NCBI RefSeq assembly: GCF_007745175.1
Contig: NZ_CP036271.1
Coordinates: forward strand, 1 to 64,000
Length of the DNA stretch: 64,000 nt
From: Caulifigura coniformis
Lineage (GTDB): Bacteria; Planctomycetota; Planctomycetia; Planctomycetales; Planctomycetaceae
Direction of reading: 5' to 3'
Part shown: positions 23,250-59,899 of the stretch, piece after piece
Position numbering within the stretch: the first letter of the stretch is position 1
Layout: each line of letters opens with the position of its first letter
Translations under genes and position numbers: made by a program
Notes under the pieces: model-generated
What the model saw: only the letters and a program-made list of their open reading frames with translations
Told to the model about the DNA's origin: nothing
Database searches by the model: none

Positions 23250-23391
23250 TGAGAGGAGGAACGAGACTGGAGGACGTTCGGGAAGGGGCAGGATACGGCG
23301 GGCGGGCGGGATTCGGAACCGCGCGCAACCGCGCACGGACAGGTGACGGCAGTTCAATTTCTGGCTCGCCACCTGGTTTCGGGACACGCGG

Positions 23392-25254
23392 ATGATTCTG
23401 AACGACACCTTCACTGCACCGGATGGTTCGCTGCTCACAGCCCGTAGTGCTGATTCCGGGGCGACTTACGCCATGAATCCGGCCGGATCGGAACCGATCC
23501 GGATCCACGCGGGGCGGGCCCATGCCGACGGCGTGGCCTTCGCCTGCTCCTCCGTGACCGCCGCCGACTGCGAAATCGAAGGGCTGTTCCGCTGCCTCTC
23601 GGCCGATGGCCAGCATGCGGGGATTGTCGGCCGGATGTCGACTTCCGAATCGGCCTGGTACTGCGTGTTGCTGCAGTTCGGCGAAGGGATCTGCCTGTAC
23701 GGTTCGGGGAGCCTTGGCAGCTTTCCCGTCACGTTCGTTCCGGGTCGGGACTATCGCGTGAAGCTGCTGATGAAGGGCTCGTTTCTGCGGGCGTTCCTGA
23801 ACGGCTACGAATTCCGGCGGGTTGTGGATACGGAACGATCGACCGGGCGGATCGGGCTCTGCTTCCAGGGCGCGTCCCTGGAAACGACCGGGATGCACCT
23901 CGATTCGCTCGTCGCCCGCGAGGAATCCATCGCGCCGCAGATCCTGTTTCATGGCGACTCACTGACGAGCGGGCTGACGTCGCCCGCGCTGTCGCATGTC
24001 GAAAAGTATCCGACGCGCGTGATCGGTCTTCTCGAACAGGAATGCGACTGGGCCAATCTCGGAGTCTCCGGGCGCTCCCTTTCCGATCTTCTCGCCAACG
24101 TCGCGGAAGTGGATGACTGTCGTCGGCCCGAGTCGTCGAGCGACGTGGTCGTTGTGTGGGGCGGGATCAACGACCTGCTGGAGGGCGCCACGACGGCCGA
24201 CGTCATCGCCCGCCTGTCGACGTATGGCGACGGCCGGCGGGCCCTCGGCTTCCAGGTGGTCGTGCTCACGACCATCGCCGCGGATGAGGCGCATCCCGAC
24301 GTCGATGCGGAATTCGACGCGAAGCGGAGCGCGGTGAATACGTGGCTGCGCGAGCATTGGGCCGATCATTTCGACGCGCTGGCCGATGTGGCGGCCGATC
24401 CGCGGCTGAGCGACCCCACCGATATGGGCTACTTTCAGGCCGATGGAGTGCACCTGACGGCCGGCGGGACGGTCGTGGTGGCCGAGGTCGTCGCCCGGTC
24501 GCTGCGCTCGTTGGGTGAAGCGGCGCTGGAGATCACGTCTCCTGCAGAGGGGGATGTTGTTCTCGCAGGCGAAGCGACCGGGATCACCTGGAATACGACC
24601 GGTTCGGTTCCAGAGGTGAGCGTCGAACTGAGCCGCGACGGCGGTGTGACGTACGACACGGTGCTGGTGGAAGACCTCGCGAACAGTGGGTCGCTGGCGT
24701 GGACTCCCGCGATCGAGCAGCGGACGCCGACCGCCCGGGTGCGCATCCGGGAGACGGCTTCATCGGTCGTGGCCGAATCGGCGGTCTTCCGGATTGCGAC
24801 GACGTCGCCATCGGGCGGAGTGGTGACGACCGGCGACCTGGAAGCGGCGCTCGAGACGCTGAAGTCGCATGGCGACACGGTGTGGGGGAGAAACCCGATC
24901 CTGCCGGTGGTTGCCCGCGTGAACCAGGAGCCGGTCTCGAAAACACTCCTCGTGGCCTATCAGCGGGGACGTTCGCGGCACCAGGTGGTGATCGTCGACT
25001 CGACGGGGGAGGGGGTCGATCTTTCGGCCAAGTCGCTGCAGTTCACGCTTGAGACCCTGGGGGGCGCGGCCGTTGCTTCGACGAGCGAAATGACGATTTC
25101 GGGAGACGAATCGCACATCGCGTCGTTCACGGCGGAGGAATCGTGGCACGTGCAGCCGGGGCTGTATCGCTACGCCCTGCGGGACCAGGCGGACGGGGCG
25201 CGGGTCTGGGCGCGCGGGGACTACGTCGTGGAACCGACGGCGGGGCCGGTTTGA
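23392..25254 (+). CDS. GDSL/SGNH hydrolase with phage tail-like C-terminal domain
   Basis: A 620-residue protein with no signal peptide. Residues 1-175 look like a beta-sandwich of the LamG or concanavalin kind ([20 protein letters not shown]). Residues about 182-375 are an SGNH esterase: block [12 protein letters not shown], block III WGGINDL and block V DGVHL give the Ser/Gly/Asn/His set. An Ig-like segment follows ([20 protein letters not shown]). The C-terminus, [19 protein letters not shown] through [10 protein letters not shown] to the end, resembles immunoglobulin-like domains of phage baseplate or tail-fibre proteins. It probably deacylates a glycan. It stands alone between minus-strand housekeeping genes. 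Confidence 0.78.
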
Positions 25255-54233: not shown

Positions 54234-56018
54234 TCACCACTCGCCGAGTTCTTCCGCGAGCACGCACCAGCGCTCTTCCGCTTCGGCCAGCTGGCCGCTC
54301 AGTTCCTCGACTTCGTGATGGAGTTTGAGGGCCTCTTTGGCGTCGGTCGTTTCGAGCAGCCGGGCGTTGGCCGCCTTCTTCTGCTCGTCGAGCCGGGCGA
54401 TCGTTTTCTCCAGCGAGCCCTTTTCCTTGCGCATGGCGCGGTCATCCCGCTTTTCGGCTTTCGGAGCCGCCTTGCCGACGACTTCCGAAGGGGCCTTCGA
54501 CAGCCGGGCGGCGGCCGCTTCCCGCTCGCCCTCTTCGATTTCCTTGTTCACCGACCACAGATACGACTCGTAGTCGCCTCCGTAGTTGACGACGCGGCCG
54601 TCCCGCACTTCGATGATCGACGTCGCCAGCCGCTTCAGGAAATGGCGGTCGTGGCTGGTGAAGATCACCGTCCCCTTGAACGCCTGCAGCGCCTCGATCA
54701 GGGAGTCGACGGTTTCGACGTCCAGGTGGTTTCCCGGTTCGTCGAGGATGAGGATGTTGTGCTGGCTGAGCATCAGGCCGGCGAGGCACAGGCGGGCCCG
54801 CTCGCCACCGGAGAGGACCGAGATCTTTTTCTTGATGTCCCCGCCGCGGAACAGCAGCGACGCCGCGCCGTTGAGGATCTCCTGCATCTTCGTTCCGGCC
54901 GGAGCGGTGTTTTCGAGGTACTCGTACACCGTCTGCTTGGGCGGGAGCGTTGTATAGACGTGCTGCGCGTAGATGCCGACGTTGCAGCCGTGTCCCCAGC
55001 GGACTTCGCCGGCCAGGGCCGGGAGCGAGTCGACGATGGTCCTGAGGAACGTCGTCTTGCCCTGTCCGTTGTCACCGACGATCGCGGCCCGGTCTCCGTG
55101 GTTCACTTCCACGGCCACGCCGTCGGCGATCTTCCGTTCGGGATAGCCGATCGCGACATCGATGCAGCGCAGCGCGGCTCCTTTTCGCGGGTCGACCTGC
55201 GGCGGGCGGATGTTGACCGTCGGCTCTTCCGCGGCGATCGCGACGTCCTCGAGCTTGTCGAGCTGCTTCTCTTTCGACTTGGCCCGCGTGGCGGTGCTGG
55301 CGCGGGCCTTGTTCTTGGCGATGAACTCTTCGAGCTGCTTGCGTTTGGCCGCCAGGGCTGCGTTCACGCGTTCGTCGTGTTCCTTCCGTTCCTTCTGGTT
55401 CTCGATGTAGGCGTCGATCTTGCCGGGGAACATCGTCAACTTGCCGCGGGCAAGTTCGAGGGTCGCGTCGCACGTTGCGCCGAGGAAGCCCCGGTCGTGC
55501 GAGACGACGACGCAGGCTTCCTTGTAGCCGCGGAGGAAGTGCTCGAGCAGAATCTGGGTGCGCAGGTCGAGGAAGTTGGTTGGTTCGTCGAGCAGCAGCA
55601 GGTTGGGCTGATGCAGGAGGAGGGCGGCGAGTTTCACGCGCGTCTGCCATCCGCCGGACAGCTTCGCGATCGGGCCGTCCAGATAGGCCCCCTTGAGTTC
55701 GAACTGTCCGGCGACTTCGCCGCATTTCCAGTCGGGCTGTCCGCTATCCCGCATGAGGAAGTCGAGCACGGTTTCTTCCGGCAGGAAGGAGTCGTGCTGT
55801 CGGAGGTAGCCCAGGCGCAGCCGGGGATGACGCGAGACTTCGCCGCGATCGAGTTCCTCTTCGCCGAGGAGGATCTTGAGCAGCGTGCTTTTGCCGGCGC
55901 CGTTCCGGCCGACGAAGCCGACCTTCACGTCGTCCGTGATCGTGGCATCCGCGCCGTCCAGAAGAACCTGCCCGCCATAACTCTTGTAGGCGTTCCGAAT
56001 CTGCAGCAACACCGCCAT
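54234..56018 (-). CDS. ABC-F family ATPase
   Basis: A 594-residue soluble protein with two ABC ATPase domains and no membrane segments. First domain: Walker A GRNGAGKST, signature LSGGWQTRVK, Walker B LLLLDEPTNFLD. Linker about 240-300 is charged and helical, as in ribosome-acting ABC-F proteins. Second domain: GDNGQGKTT, LSGGERARLC, ILILDEPGNHLD. Members (Uup, EttA, YbiT) resolve stalled ribosomes or act in translation. The C-terminal 100 residues (LEKTIARLDEQKKAANARLL) form a coiled coil. Start at ATG 56018. Confidence 0.92.
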   Translation of the reverse strand: MAVLLQIRNAYKSYGGQVLLDGADATITDDVKVGFVGRNGAGKSTLLKILLGEEELDRGEVSRHPRLRLGYLRQHDSFLPEETVLDFLMRDSGQPDWKCGEVAGQFELKGAYLDGPIAKLSGGWQTRVKLAALLLHQPNLLLLDEPTNFLDLRTQILLEHFLRGYKEACVVVSHDRGFLGATCDATLELARGKLTMFPGKIDAYIENQKERKEHDERVNAALAAKRKQLEEFIAKNKARASTATRAKSKEKQLDKLEDVAIAAEEPTVNIRPPQVDPRKGAALRCIDVAIGYPERKIADGVAVEVNHGDRAAIVGDNGQGKTTFLRTIVDSLPALAGEVRWGHGCNVGIYAQHVYTTLPPKQTVYEYLENTAPAGTKMQEILNGAASLLFRGGDIKKKISVLSGGERARLCLAGLMLSQHNILILDEPGNHLDVETVDSLIEALQAFKGTVIFTSHDRHFLKRLATSIIEVRDGRVVNYGGDYESYLWSVNKEIEEGEREAAAARLSKAPSEVVGKAAPKAEKRDDRAMRKEKGSLEKTIARLDEQKKAANARLLETTDAKEALKLHHEVEELSGQLAEAEERWCVLAEELGEW

Positions 56019-56377
56019 CGTCGAATCACTCGCTGGGGAACCCGCACCGGGAAAAGCCCGCAGCATAGTCGAAGCTCCGCCCGGAAGCAGCGGTAGGCTG
56101 CTCGCGATCCCCGGGGGGATGCCTGCCGGAGGGCGAGCGAGCGAGGCGCGCGCGTTGATGGGGGGTTGCGTACTCCTCGCCCCTACTCCCCCACTCCCCT
56201 GGGCCGGGACGCTGCCCGCGTCCCCCGATTCGTGGAATCGGCGCCCGTTGGCTCCGTCGTGATGATGTGCATCAGTCCTCCCGGAAGACGTGTGCGGTTG
56301 CGCGCGGGAGGCCGCGGCCGCCTCCGGATAGACTGTTCCCCGATGACCGGCGGACCCTTTCTTTCAGGAGGCATTCG
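56019..56377. other. Divergent gap with two tight hairpins
   Basis: No gene is supported. It should hold the promoters of the ABC-F gene and the secreted protein gene. At 56206-56224 lies GGGACGC-TGCCC-GCGTCCC and at 56225-56241 CCGATTC-GTG-GAATCGG, directly adjacent; the second has the 3-base loop seen in other hairpin clusters in this window. Confidence 0.6.
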
Positions 56378-57332: not shown

Positions 57333-57734
57333 TCAGACGCGTTTCAGGGCGAGCATCTTCCGGGCGCGCTCGAGCGACTTCTGCTTGAGTTCGAAGCCGG
57401 CGTCGTCGGTCGGCTTCATCTGCATGGCGGCATCATACTCGGCCTGGGCCGCGGCGGCGTCGATCTGTTCCACCGGGAAGGCCCGGTTGGTGAGGAGCGT
57501 GACGACCGGTCCCTTGATCTGGAGGAATCCGCCGTCGATGAAGTAGCGGCGCTCGCCCTGGCCCGATTCGAAGCTCAGCTCGCCGGCGCCGAGGCGGCCG
57601 ATCGCCGGAGCACGTCCGGGCAGCACGCCCATCTGGCCGTCGAACAGCGGAAACTGAATCGAGCGAACGACTTCGTCGAGGAGGGTGGTCTCGGGAGTCA
57701 CGACGACCAGACGCAGTTCAGCGGGGGCAACCAT
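57333..57734 (-). CDS. atpC: F0F1 ATP synthase epsilon subunit, isolated
   Basis: A 133-residue epsilon subunit. The N-terminal beta-sandwich is clear: LRLVVVTPETTLLDEVVRSI then QFPLFDGQMGVLPGRAPAIG, with RRYFIDGGFLQIKGPVVTLL completing it; the C-terminal helical arm is AEYDAAMQMKPTDDAGFELK then QKSLERARKM. Epsilon links the rotor to F1 and can inhibit hydrolysis. There is no atpD or other ATP-synthase gene beside it, which is unusual since atpC normally ends the atp operon right after atpD. The 276 bases upstream contain no minus-strand gene. Confidence 0.92.
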   Translation of the reverse strand: MVAPAELRLVVVTPETTLLDEVVRSIQFPLFDGQMGVLPGRAPAIGRLGAGELSFESGQGERRYFIDGGFLQIKGPVVTLLTNRAFPVEQIDAAAAQAEYDAAMQMKPTDDAGFELKQKSLERARKMLALKRV

Positions 57735-58009
57735 CGGCGGCTTCCACTCAAAAACAGGATCAGCAAGCGGTAAAGGCTACGGCGCGGAAGAGGGGGACTC
57801 AAGCCCGGGCGGGGAGGGTTCCCGTGGCCGGGAAGCCCGGAAGGGCCGGACGCTGCTTCCGAGATAAATCGGAAGTCCATTGGCCCGAAAGCCCGAAAAT
57901 TCCGTGGCGACCGTGACTTGTGGCGTCTTCGGCCTGTTCCGCGCAACCGCGCACAGGGGGTAGAGGGACCTCAACTATCACAGAGGCCAGGCGCACGGAG
58001 ACCAGAGGC

Positions 58010-59374
58010 ATGTGGACGCTGATCCGGGATTCACTGGCGACCGCGGGACTGAAGGCGAAATACCAGCGACTGATTCACGAGAGGCTGCTCCACTTCACAG
58101 AAGCCACGGGGCCGAAGGGCGTCGAGGAAGATCCGGGCCGCTGGCTGGCGGTGGGACGGACCGAACGTGGGCTGGACGAACACCAGCGAAGCGATGCGCG
58201 GGCCCGGGCCAGACGACTCGTGCAGACCAATCCGCATGCCCGGAACATCCTGCGGCTGCTGGAGGTGTACGTGGCCGGCCCGGGGCTGGAGGTCACGCAC
58301 CTGCCGGCCGATCCCGGGGGACGGACACCGGAGAATGACGCACTTCTCCAAACGGCCGACCGGCTGTGGTCCCGTTTCCTCGACGTCAACGAGCGTCACT
58401 ATTCCGCCCGCGAGCATTCCCGTCGCGCCTGGCGGGACGGCGAATGCTTTCTCCGGAAGTTTGAGTCACCGGCCTGGCCGCCGGTGGTCCGGTTTGTCGA
58501 CCCGGAAACGATCGGCGAGACGCCGCACAGCCCCGGGACGGAGGGGATTCTCACGAGTCCTGATGATGTGGAGACTCCGATCGCCTACCTGCGCCTGCTC
58601 GACGGGGGGCGGGGCGCGGAGCGGATCGATGCGGACGACATGCTTCACACGCGGGTCGGCGTCGATTCCAACCAGAAGCGGGGAGTCACGATCTTCGCGC
58701 CGGTTCTGGACACGCTGACCTGCTTCGACAAGTGGGTCGACACGGAGCTGACCGCCCGGAAGCTGCAGTCGTCGATCGTGCTGTGGCGGAAGGTGCAGGG
58801 GACTCCCCAGCAGGCGGCCGGTCTGGCGGAGGGGGCCTCGGGCGGGATGGGGCGCGAGGCGATCCGTCCCGGAACGATCCTGACGACGAACCAGTCGACG
58901 GAGGTGCAGTTCCTGCAGCCGAACACGAATTTCGGCGATGCGGTTCCGCTCGGGAGGATGTTGCTGCTGAACGTTGCGGCGGGGGCCGGCCTGCCCGAAT
59001 TCATGCTCACCTCGGATGCCTCGAACGCCAACTTCGCGTCGACGATGGTGGCCGAAGGTCCGGCGGTGAAGCTGTTCCAGAGTGAGCAGCAGTTCTTCGC
59101 GGGGGAGTTTCACCGGCTGTGGCGGTGGATCATGACGGATGCTGTGGAGCTCGGGTTGCTGCCGGCCGACTTCTTCGAACGCGTGACGCCGCGCTGGACG
59201 TTTCCGCAGCTGGTGAATCGCGACCGGACGCGGGAGCGTCTGGCCGATGTGAGGCTCGTCGAATCGCAGGTGCTGTCGCGTGCGGAAGTGGCGCGACGGG
59301 ATGGCGTCGACCCGAAGACGATGCGCGAGGAGCTGCAGGCCGAGCAGTCGAAGGACGGTTCGCTGTCCCGTTGA
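58010..59374 (+). CDS. Phage portal protein (lambda B-like), isolated
   Basis: A 454-residue portal protein of the lambda type, which forms the dodecameric ring for DNA entry into the capsid. Recognisable stretches are ARARRLVQTNPHARNILRLL then EVYVAGPGLEV, SRRAWRDGECFLRKFES, DDMLHTRVGVDSNQKRGVTI then FAPVL, and the conserved IRPGTILTTNQSTEVQFLQP then MLLLNVAAGAGLPEFMLTSD. The 454-residue length fits, and no frameshift is seen, so it may be expressed. There is no terminase, capsid or tail gene nearby. The stop lies in the first bases of a composite repeat, suggesting the 3' end was remodelled. Confidence 0.88.
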   Translation: MWTLIRDSLATAGLKAKYQRLIHERLLHFTEATGPKGVEEDPGRWLAVGRTERGLDEHQRSDARARARRLVQTNPHARNILRLLEVYVAGPGLEVTHLPADPGGRTPENDALLQTADRLWSRFLDVNERHYSAREHSRRAWRDGECFLRKFESPAWPPVVRFVDPETIGETPHSPGTEGILTSPDDVETPIAYLRLLDGGRGAERIDADDMLHTRVGVDSNQKRGVTIFAPVLDTLTCFDKWVDTELTARKLQSSIVLWRKVQGTPQQAAGLAEGASGGMGREAIRPGTILTTNQSTEVQFLQPNTNFGDAVPLGRMLLLNVAAGAGLPEFMLTSDASNANFASTMVAEGPAVKLFQSEQQFFAGEFHRLWRWIMTDAVELGLLPADFFERVTPRWTFPQLVNRDRTRERLADVRLVESQVLSRAEVARRDGVDPKTMREELQAEQSKDGSLSR

Positions 59375-59859
59375 TGAGTTGGTGTGCCAGGGCTCTGTGA
59401 GTGGTGTGAATGCGGACCGCGGTTTCGTGGTGGAACCGACGCCTGCAGCGCACGGCCGAGGCGGCCGTGGCACGGCCTTTTGAATGGGTTGCTATGCCGA
59501 CCTGCGGCTGGGGCGTTGACTGCGAAGGGTTTCCGTTTTCGGGTGCGTGACAGAATGCCGCCTGTCCGCAGATTGCACTGGCGGAGCCAGTGCCACCTCC
59601 CCGGCCGAGGCGGCCGTGGCACGGCCTTTTGAATGGGTTGCTATGTCGACCTGCGGCTGCGGGCGTTGACTGCGAAGGGTTTCCGTTTTCGGGTGCGTGT
59701 CAGAATGCCGCCTGTCCGCAGATTGCACTGGCGGAGCCAGTGCCACCCCACCGTTGATGTCCTGGCGTGCCACGGCTCTGTGAGCCGTGCGAACGCAGAC
59801 TGCGGCCTCCTGATGCAACCGCCGCCTGCAGCGCACGGCCGAGACGGCCGTGGCACGGC
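59370..59859. repeat. Composite repeat: outer copies flanking a tandem 149-base unit
   Basis: Outer copies at 59370-59475 and 59753-59859 share about 105 bases. Between, a unit of about 145 bases occurs twice (59453-59597 and 59602-59747, period 149, near identical, one base inserted). It contains tight perfect hairpins: CACGGCCG-AGG-CGGCCGTG (59451-59469), CACTGGC-GGA-GCCAGTG (59576-59592 and 59726-59742), CACGGCTC-TGT-GAGCCGTG (59771-59789) and CACGGCCG-AGA-CGGCCGTG (59834-59852), most of them followed by GCAC or CCAC. The rest of the gap to pgsA (to 59899) shows nothing else. Confidence 0.85.
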
Positions 59860-59899
59860 GGTTTCCGTGGGACGCAGGTTTGAAGACTTCGCCGGCGTG

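Follow-up and report, generated by a model that had tools for sequence, protein, structure and literature searches.

Does a complete phage portal gene that stands alone among housekeeping genes represent the remnant of a prophage, or one piece of a dispersed particle that is still kept by its host? This question is raised by a locus in the 64-kb stretch of planctomycete DNA analyzed here (the window), for which the initial annotation had proposed either a decayed prophage or dispersed structural genes of a particle resembling a gene transfer agent (GTA). The features of the locus are:

57333-57734, minus strand: atpC, named from its translation
57941..57965, plus strand: promoter-like element of two boxes, GCGCAACC-N10-GGTAGAG, 69 bases upstream of the portal ATG
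58010..59374, plus strand: portal protein gene of 454 codons
59900-60568, minus strand: pgsA, named from its translation

The open reading frame at 57920-59374 (+) comprises 484 codons; the ATG at 58010 aligns with the starts of relatives, and the portal frame is open and intact. The protein belongs to the lambda-type portal family Phage_portal_2 (PF05136, 1.4e-33; profile positions 16-351 of 354 covered), its best PHROG match is phrog_21 (3.2e-40) with further matches to other PHROG portal families, and a fold search with an AlphaFold2 model based on 38 aligned sequences (mean pLDDT 76.8, pTM 0.66) identified the lambda portal 8k38 as nearest solved structure (E 3.9e-16). In contrast to the phage members of this family, the gene lies outside any phage genome, and the 62 phage records that it matches are distant (20.9-25.2% identity for the best 20 of the 62). 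The first description of a full-length lambda-type portal gene without phage neighbours is therefore confirmed in both parts, as atpC and pgsA flank the gene and no adjoining phage gene was found in the window, where the portal is the sole piece of the particle core set. Just 3' of it, a stretch of ~200 bases is repeated imperfectly, in two to three copies recognized by eye (59380-59880).

The portal is single-copy, with one match in its own genome (G000, 6.76 Mb in one contig). A first survey yielded matches in 28 of 59 genomes, its own included, and identities of 48-70% in 20 of 36 other genomes of the same family. By profile search, 57 of the 170 genomes of the family, G000 counted, have the portal (46 of the 130 good ones), with one match each; 43 of these matches are strong and near full length, three partial and 11 distant, and the other 113 genomes have none at 1e-30. 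Partial portals were found in G099 and G100, and the closest named records are planctomycete draft genomes.

To search G000 itself, profiles were built from the genes beside portals in other genera. This analysis revealed matches to the protease at 179.8 kb, the capsid at 181.3 kb, the tube at 185.3 kb and TerL at 287.1 kb, so the terminase, capsid and tail genes that the initial annotation had advised looking for are present at two other places of the genome. In detail, the particle genes lie at three places within 232 kb, namely the portal, a head-tail locus B (179.8-191.7 kb) and a terminase locus C (ABC-GNAT-TerS-like-TerL, 287.1-290.4 kb), and some twenty companion genes of the portal are retained:

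178,708-179,268, minus strand: ParB-like gene beside locus B (PF02195, 1.2e-6)
179,309-179,611, minus strand: C18 (100 aa) beside locus B, weak likeness to sigma region 4
from 179,770, plus strand: protease, locus B (weak, phrog_2229, 0.0024)
from 180,676, plus strand: cement-like gene, locus B (weak, PF09956, 3e-4)
from 181,341, plus strand: capsid, locus B (PF25209, 8.6e-15)
from 182,546, plus strand: C9, locus B
from 183,379, plus strand: C10, locus B
between C10 and neck, plus strand: C20 and C21, locus B
from 184,379, plus strand: neck, locus B (phrog_169, 7.4e-9)
from 184,832, plus strand: C4, locus B
from 185,284, plus strand: tube, locus B, named by predicted fold
from 185,905, plus strand: tape-measure-like gene, 223 aa, locus B (weak, phrog_58, 0.0014)
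from 186,630, plus strand: C11, locus B
from 187,146, plus strand: C5, locus B
188,783 to 191,671, plus strand: three glycosyltransferase-like genes at the end of locus B (PF00535, 5.3e-14; PF00534, 3.4e-10)
290,393-289,572, minus strand: ABC ATPase, locus C (PF00005, 3.1e-13)
between ABC ATPase and TerS-like gene, minus strand: GNAT, locus C (weak, 2.2e-5)
between GNAT and TerL, minus strand: TerS-like gene, locus C (weak matches)
288,639-287,128, minus strand: TerL, locus C (PF03354, 1.4e-8; phrog_9, 5.8e-27)

For C9, C10, C4, tube, C11 and C5 the Pfam and PHROG libraries gave no family match. Tail-tube matches of the tube are weak (E 3.7e-3 and higher); its fold search returned nothing at or below E 0.001, and the weak fold matches include the tube of RcGTA (E 5e-3). 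The TerS-like protein has weak matches to HTH_23 (0.014), the DNA-binding family phrog_664 (0.0031) and the terminase small subunit family phrog_4044 (0.059).

Two further terminases of G000 were set aside as partners of the portal, as both sit in other elements. The GpA-type terminase (4.826 Mb) belongs to L057 (G000:C1 ~4.825-4.836 Mb), the remnant of a separate phage or satellite that borders on ordinary genes and also encodes a TerS-like protein, a DNA methylase and, by eye, a primase-like protein; the second TerL (5.253 Mb; A2 family, 4.9e-89) belongs to L134 (G000:C1 5244877-5255051), in which integrase-like and primase-like genes were read by eye. Three related elements of the same genome, L381 (~5.758 Mb), L382 (~4.519 Mb) and L383 (~3.416 Mb), each contain a protease homologue, a tape-measure-like gene of 812-868 aa and, by eye, a resolvase-like gene; none of the three matched capsid, portal or terminase in the 20 kb read. 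Such a particle could have them as satellites.

The arrangement in relatives bears on how the scattering arose. The full set is contiguous in G002, G014 and G025, comprising ThiF, C18, ParB, ABC with GNAT, TerS-like, TerL, portal, protease, cement, capsid and tail genes. TerL is parted from the portal in G000, G005, G033 and G026, the portal from the protease in G000, G005, G008, G019 and G175, and the capsid from C9 in G005 and G012. Terminase, portal, protease, capsid and tube were checked in the one-contig family genomes G000, G002, G005, G008, G014, G019, G033 and G175: all five genes are present in seven of the eight (the tube profile had no match in G008), and the set is split in six. 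The protease accompanies the portal in 42 of 44 portal-bearing genomes. Judged from these gene orders, the particle set was once together and was later broken at different joints. The thought that relatives might carry the portal inside a complete prophage holds in so far as some of them have a contiguous structural cluster; no integrase or replication gene was read by eye in the G002 cluster or at the ends of three others. In G001, the sole other genome of the genus searched, portal and TerL are present and protease, capsid and tube are absent; as this genome is a draft (50 contigs, rated 99% complete), a true loss of the head-tail genes is indistinguishable from an assembly gap. ABC ATPase, GNAT, ParB-like and ThiF-like genes are kept beside the terminase at L038, L044, L048 and L133, and the ABC gene beside the terminase recurs in other families; perhaps these genes have a role in DNA modification.

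Beyond the family, the capsid profile matched 115 of 397 genomes of the class (own included; 112 of the 339 good ones), as a single match in 110 of the 115 and spread over 18 families, two of them with distant matches only. Among 20 regions around capsids of other families, some cut by contig ends, 15 contain a portal and 11 are ordered ABC, TerL, portal, protease, capsid, their TerL falling in another clade; one (L285) differs in gene order.

The next point is whether these genes descended with their hosts. Capsid identity to G000 in other genera is 69-78% (58% in G008, 31% in G045) and RpoB identity 73-82% (90% in G001, 68% in G045). Pairwise distances correlate with those of RpoB for the portal (0.47, 22 genomes), the capsid (0.51, 21 genomes) and TerL (0.38, 16 genomes), none of which was reached in 2000 permutations, and portal and capsid distances correlate with each other at 0.69 (0 of 2000 permutations). 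TerL distances fit poorly (portal-TerL 0.28, 64 of 2000 permutations; capsid-TerL 0.39, 35 of 2000). These correlations omit partial sequences (capsid of G021 and G036; TerL of G013; RpoB of G003, G013, G118, G021 and G182) and two long-branched genomes, G045 and G008, and the same omissions apply to the trees of the 21 genomes having portal, capsid and RpoB. In these trees, 4 of 18 splits are common to RpoB and the portal (maximum of the shuffles 4, mean 0.26), 5 of 18 to RpoB and the capsid (maximum 3) and 7 to portal and capsid (maximum 3), and all three genes recover the eight-genome clade of G000. Keeping G045 and G008, RpoB has 6 of 20 splits in common with the portal (shuffles at most 4) and 3 of 20 with the capsid (up to 3 in shuffles). 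For 17 genomes compared at the level of the class, the numbers are 6 of 14 for RpoB-portal (shuffles at most 4), 5 of 14 for RpoB-capsid (shuffles at most 3) and 4 for portal-capsid, which shuffles also reach. Therefore, the partial sharing of splits together with the distance correlations suggests a mostly vertical but not clean descent, in partial agreement with RpoB.

Where finite, dN/dS is 0.020-0.032 for the capsid, 0.048-0.286 for the portal, 0.248-0.306 for TerL and 0.025-0.089 for RpoB, which points to purifying selection on the particle genes. The selection on the portal that the initial annotation had wished to see measured is purifying as well, with 0.073 and 0.077 in the two closest pairs. 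In G175/G176, where portal and capsid are ~128 kb apart, the values are 0.073 for the portal and 0.020 for the capsid; in G000/G001, with silent sites near saturation, they are 0.227 for the portal, 0.248 for TerL and 0.089 for RpoB.

What may tie the separated pieces to each other is found upstream of them. The sequence GCGCAACC was first spotted by eye upstream of the portal, protease and ABC gene of G000 and then tested on relatives, which gave the consensus GCGCAAC[C/T]-N11-GRTTGAA. Elements of this kind are also found in G000 upstream of the protease and of the ABC operon, the latter with a weak second box. A first pairwise comparison of the G000 upstream regions had given 14-base matches no better than shuffles except for protease/C18, where the two strands of a single stretch had been compared with each other. 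In the 200 bases upstream, on the coding strand, GCGCAAC[C/T] was found for 22 of 37 portals, 18 of 34 proteases and 8 of 607 control genes (Fisher 1.2e-24 and 6.9e-20 for portals and proteases against controls); the controls were taken from the first possible ORF start, which makes their upstream windows less exact than for cluster genes. The box occurs before 2 of 14 ABC genes (0.019), 1 of 10 C18 genes (0.14) and 1 of 5 C9 genes, and is absent from 15 portals, 16 proteases and 12 ABC genes. The opposite strand has it before 2 of 37 portals, 1 of 34 proteases, 0 of 14 ABC, 1 of 10 C18 and 0 of 5 C9 genes and 11 of 607 controls. In an unguided count GCGCAACC is the commonest 8-mer (35 occurrences) of 71 portal and protease upstream regions, and 44 first-box sites have a common second box near GRTTGAA, 11 bases further on. 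As the genomes are related, the upstream counts do not represent 40 independent events.

Genome-wide, GCGCAACC-N10-11-DDTWRAR was found at 46 sites in 16 genomes. Cluster genes follow 24 of these sites (the portal in 8 cases, the protease in 11, the C9 tail locus in 2 and, in 3, a detached pair of the glycosyltransferases that end the cluster in other genera); the other 22 lie elsewhere. The pattern read backwards gives 33 sites in sum in the same genomes, so it is the position and not the number of sites that is informative. G005 and G028 have zero sites. G000 (15 sites) and G013 (12), each with two sites at portal and protease, were left out of the count of 46, because most of their other sites look repeat-borne.

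In G000, 13 of the 15 sites lie away from cluster genes, 11 of them in a dispersed repeat (G000:C1 397455, 857829, 1014575, 1804750, 2273733, 2451688, 3011397, 4542292, 4677918, 5622359 and 5973785; L425-L437 except L431 and L433). Each copy spans a few hundred bases, in which an inverted stretch rich in GGGG and repeats of TGTCACA come after the two-box element; look-alike repeats of different sequence occur in G013. A search of Rfam with eight loci (six repeat-bearing ones of G000, two of G013) returned only a tRNA, and the six repeat copies themselves had no match. The repeats of G000 may be small RNA genes under the same promoter or the result of chance capture.

A possible partner of the element is C18, which weakly resembles sigma region 4: Pfam gave no match for C18 of G000, the C18 proteins of two relatives have Sigma70_r4 matches (0.033 and 0.037) that fall short of the curated cut-off, and matches of C18 to phrog_1740 are at 0.009 and 0.015.

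In the window, the strict two-box pattern occurs at the portal site only. The box GCGCAACC is present twice per strand, where ~1.8 per strand are expected from first-order composition; one copy (56303, minus strand), 237 bases before an ABC-F-like gene (54234-56066), is within chance expectation, and another precedes a candidate fourth scattered piece:

23323..23348, plus strand: GCGCAACC-N11-GGTGACG, 69 bases before the GDSL start, as for the portal
23392..25254, plus strand: 620-aa protein with GDSL hydrolase domain (PF13472, 2.8e-17)

The initial annotation had linked this gene to the portal. The box at the same distance of 69 bases speaks for such a link, which is weak in itself because of the ~1.8 copies expected by chance, and the second box is imperfect. 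The protein matches the lipase family phrog_6102 (2.8e-15) and the tail fibre family phrog_5240 (0.0017); no close viral relatives and, in the loci compared, no homologues were found. As a lead, it is possibly the tail fibre of the particle.

How far the particle resembles known GTAs was assessed from published descriptions. With regard to the six defining features of PMC9662315, the particle proteins derive from tailed phages (portal, capsid PF25209, TerL PF03354, neck phrog_169), the genes are fully endogenised and, as is often seen, at multiple loci (three in G000, other splits in relatives), and their inheritance is mostly vertical, co-diversifying with the hosts, though the agreement with RpoB is partial. 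The other features in that description are a head too small to take up all of the agent's own genes, a load of mostly random host DNA and its delivery to other cells; as regards the first of these, scatter over 232 kb makes packaging of the particle genes in one piece implausible. Known GTA packaging uses a TerS without detectable DNA-binding domain (PMC11841831). RcGTA of Rhodobacter capsulatus (Rhodogtaviriformidae) likewise has phage-derived head, tail and terminase genes at several host loci (PMC9662315), and its tape-measure protein of ~216 residues, with five tube rings (PMC7296036), is similar in size to the 223-aa tape-measure-like protein described here. Parts of its regulator GafA resemble DNA-binding domains of sigma factors (PMC9638019), which is comparable to the weak resemblance of C18 to sigma region 4. 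In contrast to RcGTA, whose 17-gene head-tail and packaging cluster stays together (PMC7947584), portal, head-tail genes and terminase are apart here and the portal is of lambda type. BhGTA (VSH-1) of Brachyspira (Brachygtaviriformidae), from another phylum, is described with a single terL outside the structural cluster and a set that is likely dispersed (PMC9662315), and so shares the separation of terL from the structural genes. The host-controlled CcGTA of Caulobacter crescentus has peripheral genes under the same activators (PMC11150451) and differs, by description, in its contiguous main cluster activated by GafYZ and IHF. For the planctomycete Zavarzinella formosa, a predicted prophage is mentioned whose terminase lies near RcGTA-like ones (PMC7947584). 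The literature searched, mostly papers available without subscription, contained no description of a planctomycete GTA, which leaves its absence unproven.

Taken together, we consider it fairly probable that the portal is part of a planctomycete particle that derives from a tailed phage, was domesticated, is inherited mostly vertically and works like a GTA, and we file it as a GTA candidate rather than a proven member. Of the two initial proposals, dispersed GTA-like structural genes thus gained support from the scattered complete set, its presence in many genera, the partial agreement with RpoB and the upstream element. The chief result against it is the lack of the head-tail genes in the draft genome G001; the 113 family genomes without a portal match, the limited sharing of splits with RpoB, the poor fit of the TerL distances, the genes that lack the element and the sites away from cluster genes also count against it. 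The structural genes at the three loci would probably be switched on together via the common two-box promoter, perhaps recognized by C18, which is coded beside the head-tail locus. The terminase could then load cell DNA through the portal into a short-tailed head, and the released particle would deliver this DNA to other cells.

A domesticated particle might also have another job, such as packing the DNA of one satellite or plasmid, killing rivals or serving as a container. All genomic results fit this equally well, and L381-L383 and the two terminase-bearing elements of G000 could be its users; we regard another job as unlikely, because a container or killer would not need terminase, portal and tail together, and the retention of all three suits DNA delivery.

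Contiguous clusters and imperfectly agreeing trees would also suit a phage lineage that still infects planctomycetes, with clusters as prophages and lone portals as remnants, and so would viral contigs that hold the cluster. In IMG/VR, 144 stretches encode capsid relatives; among the best 80 of the 144, one is 80% identical, followed by 47, 47, 40 and 36%, and the rest at most 31%. The contig with the 80% identical capsid (14 kb, one of two IMG/VR matches of the TerL profile) carries the same cluster, and more distant contigs carry the class-type cluster. The phage contigs L152 and L153, with capsids 47% identical, share the gene order protease-cement-capsid-C9-tube and differ from the G000 set in nucleotide-metabolism genes, read by eye, and in a tape-measure-like protein of 985 aa in L153 (cut off in L152). 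Compared with these 985 aa, the 223 aa in G000 suggest that the tail of the particle was shortened. A phage that is still mobile seems improbable to us, since the lone pieces are intact and all others are found elsewhere in the same genome, there is one copy per genome, the capsid is nearly as conserved as RpoB and has no relative among 50,697 phage records, no integrase or replication gene was read by eye in the clusters inspected, and a set split over three to four places could hardly be carried as one phage genome. Nor are the structural genes of G000 united in one integrated element, as in an intact prophage.

The initial alternative of a decayed prophage, with a portal left by chance, would suit its solitary position, the partial portals of G099 and G100 and the head-tail locus possibly lost from G001, and is very improbable in view of the open frames, of dN/dS well under 1 and of the capsid, terminase, protease and tail genes that persist among its companions. 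The retained capsid, portal and terminase led us to reject a tailocin.

A wider version of the GTA-like reading is tentative, though conceivable: an ancient GTA of separate origin, present throughout the class, whose independently scattered genes would be united by GCGCAACC-N11-GRTTGAA and a C18-like regulator, with the GDSL protein as receptor-binding fibre.

How frequent GTAs are is an open question, as they resemble defective prophages and are split over loci, and similarity searches for them have worked mainly in alphaproteobacteria (PMC11841831). A class-wide planctomycete candidate, whose genes are scattered and yet have a common upstream element, suggests that agents missed by cluster-based searches may become findable, by looking for single-copy, strongly conserved and dispersed capsid, portal and terminase genes that are tied by a common promoter.
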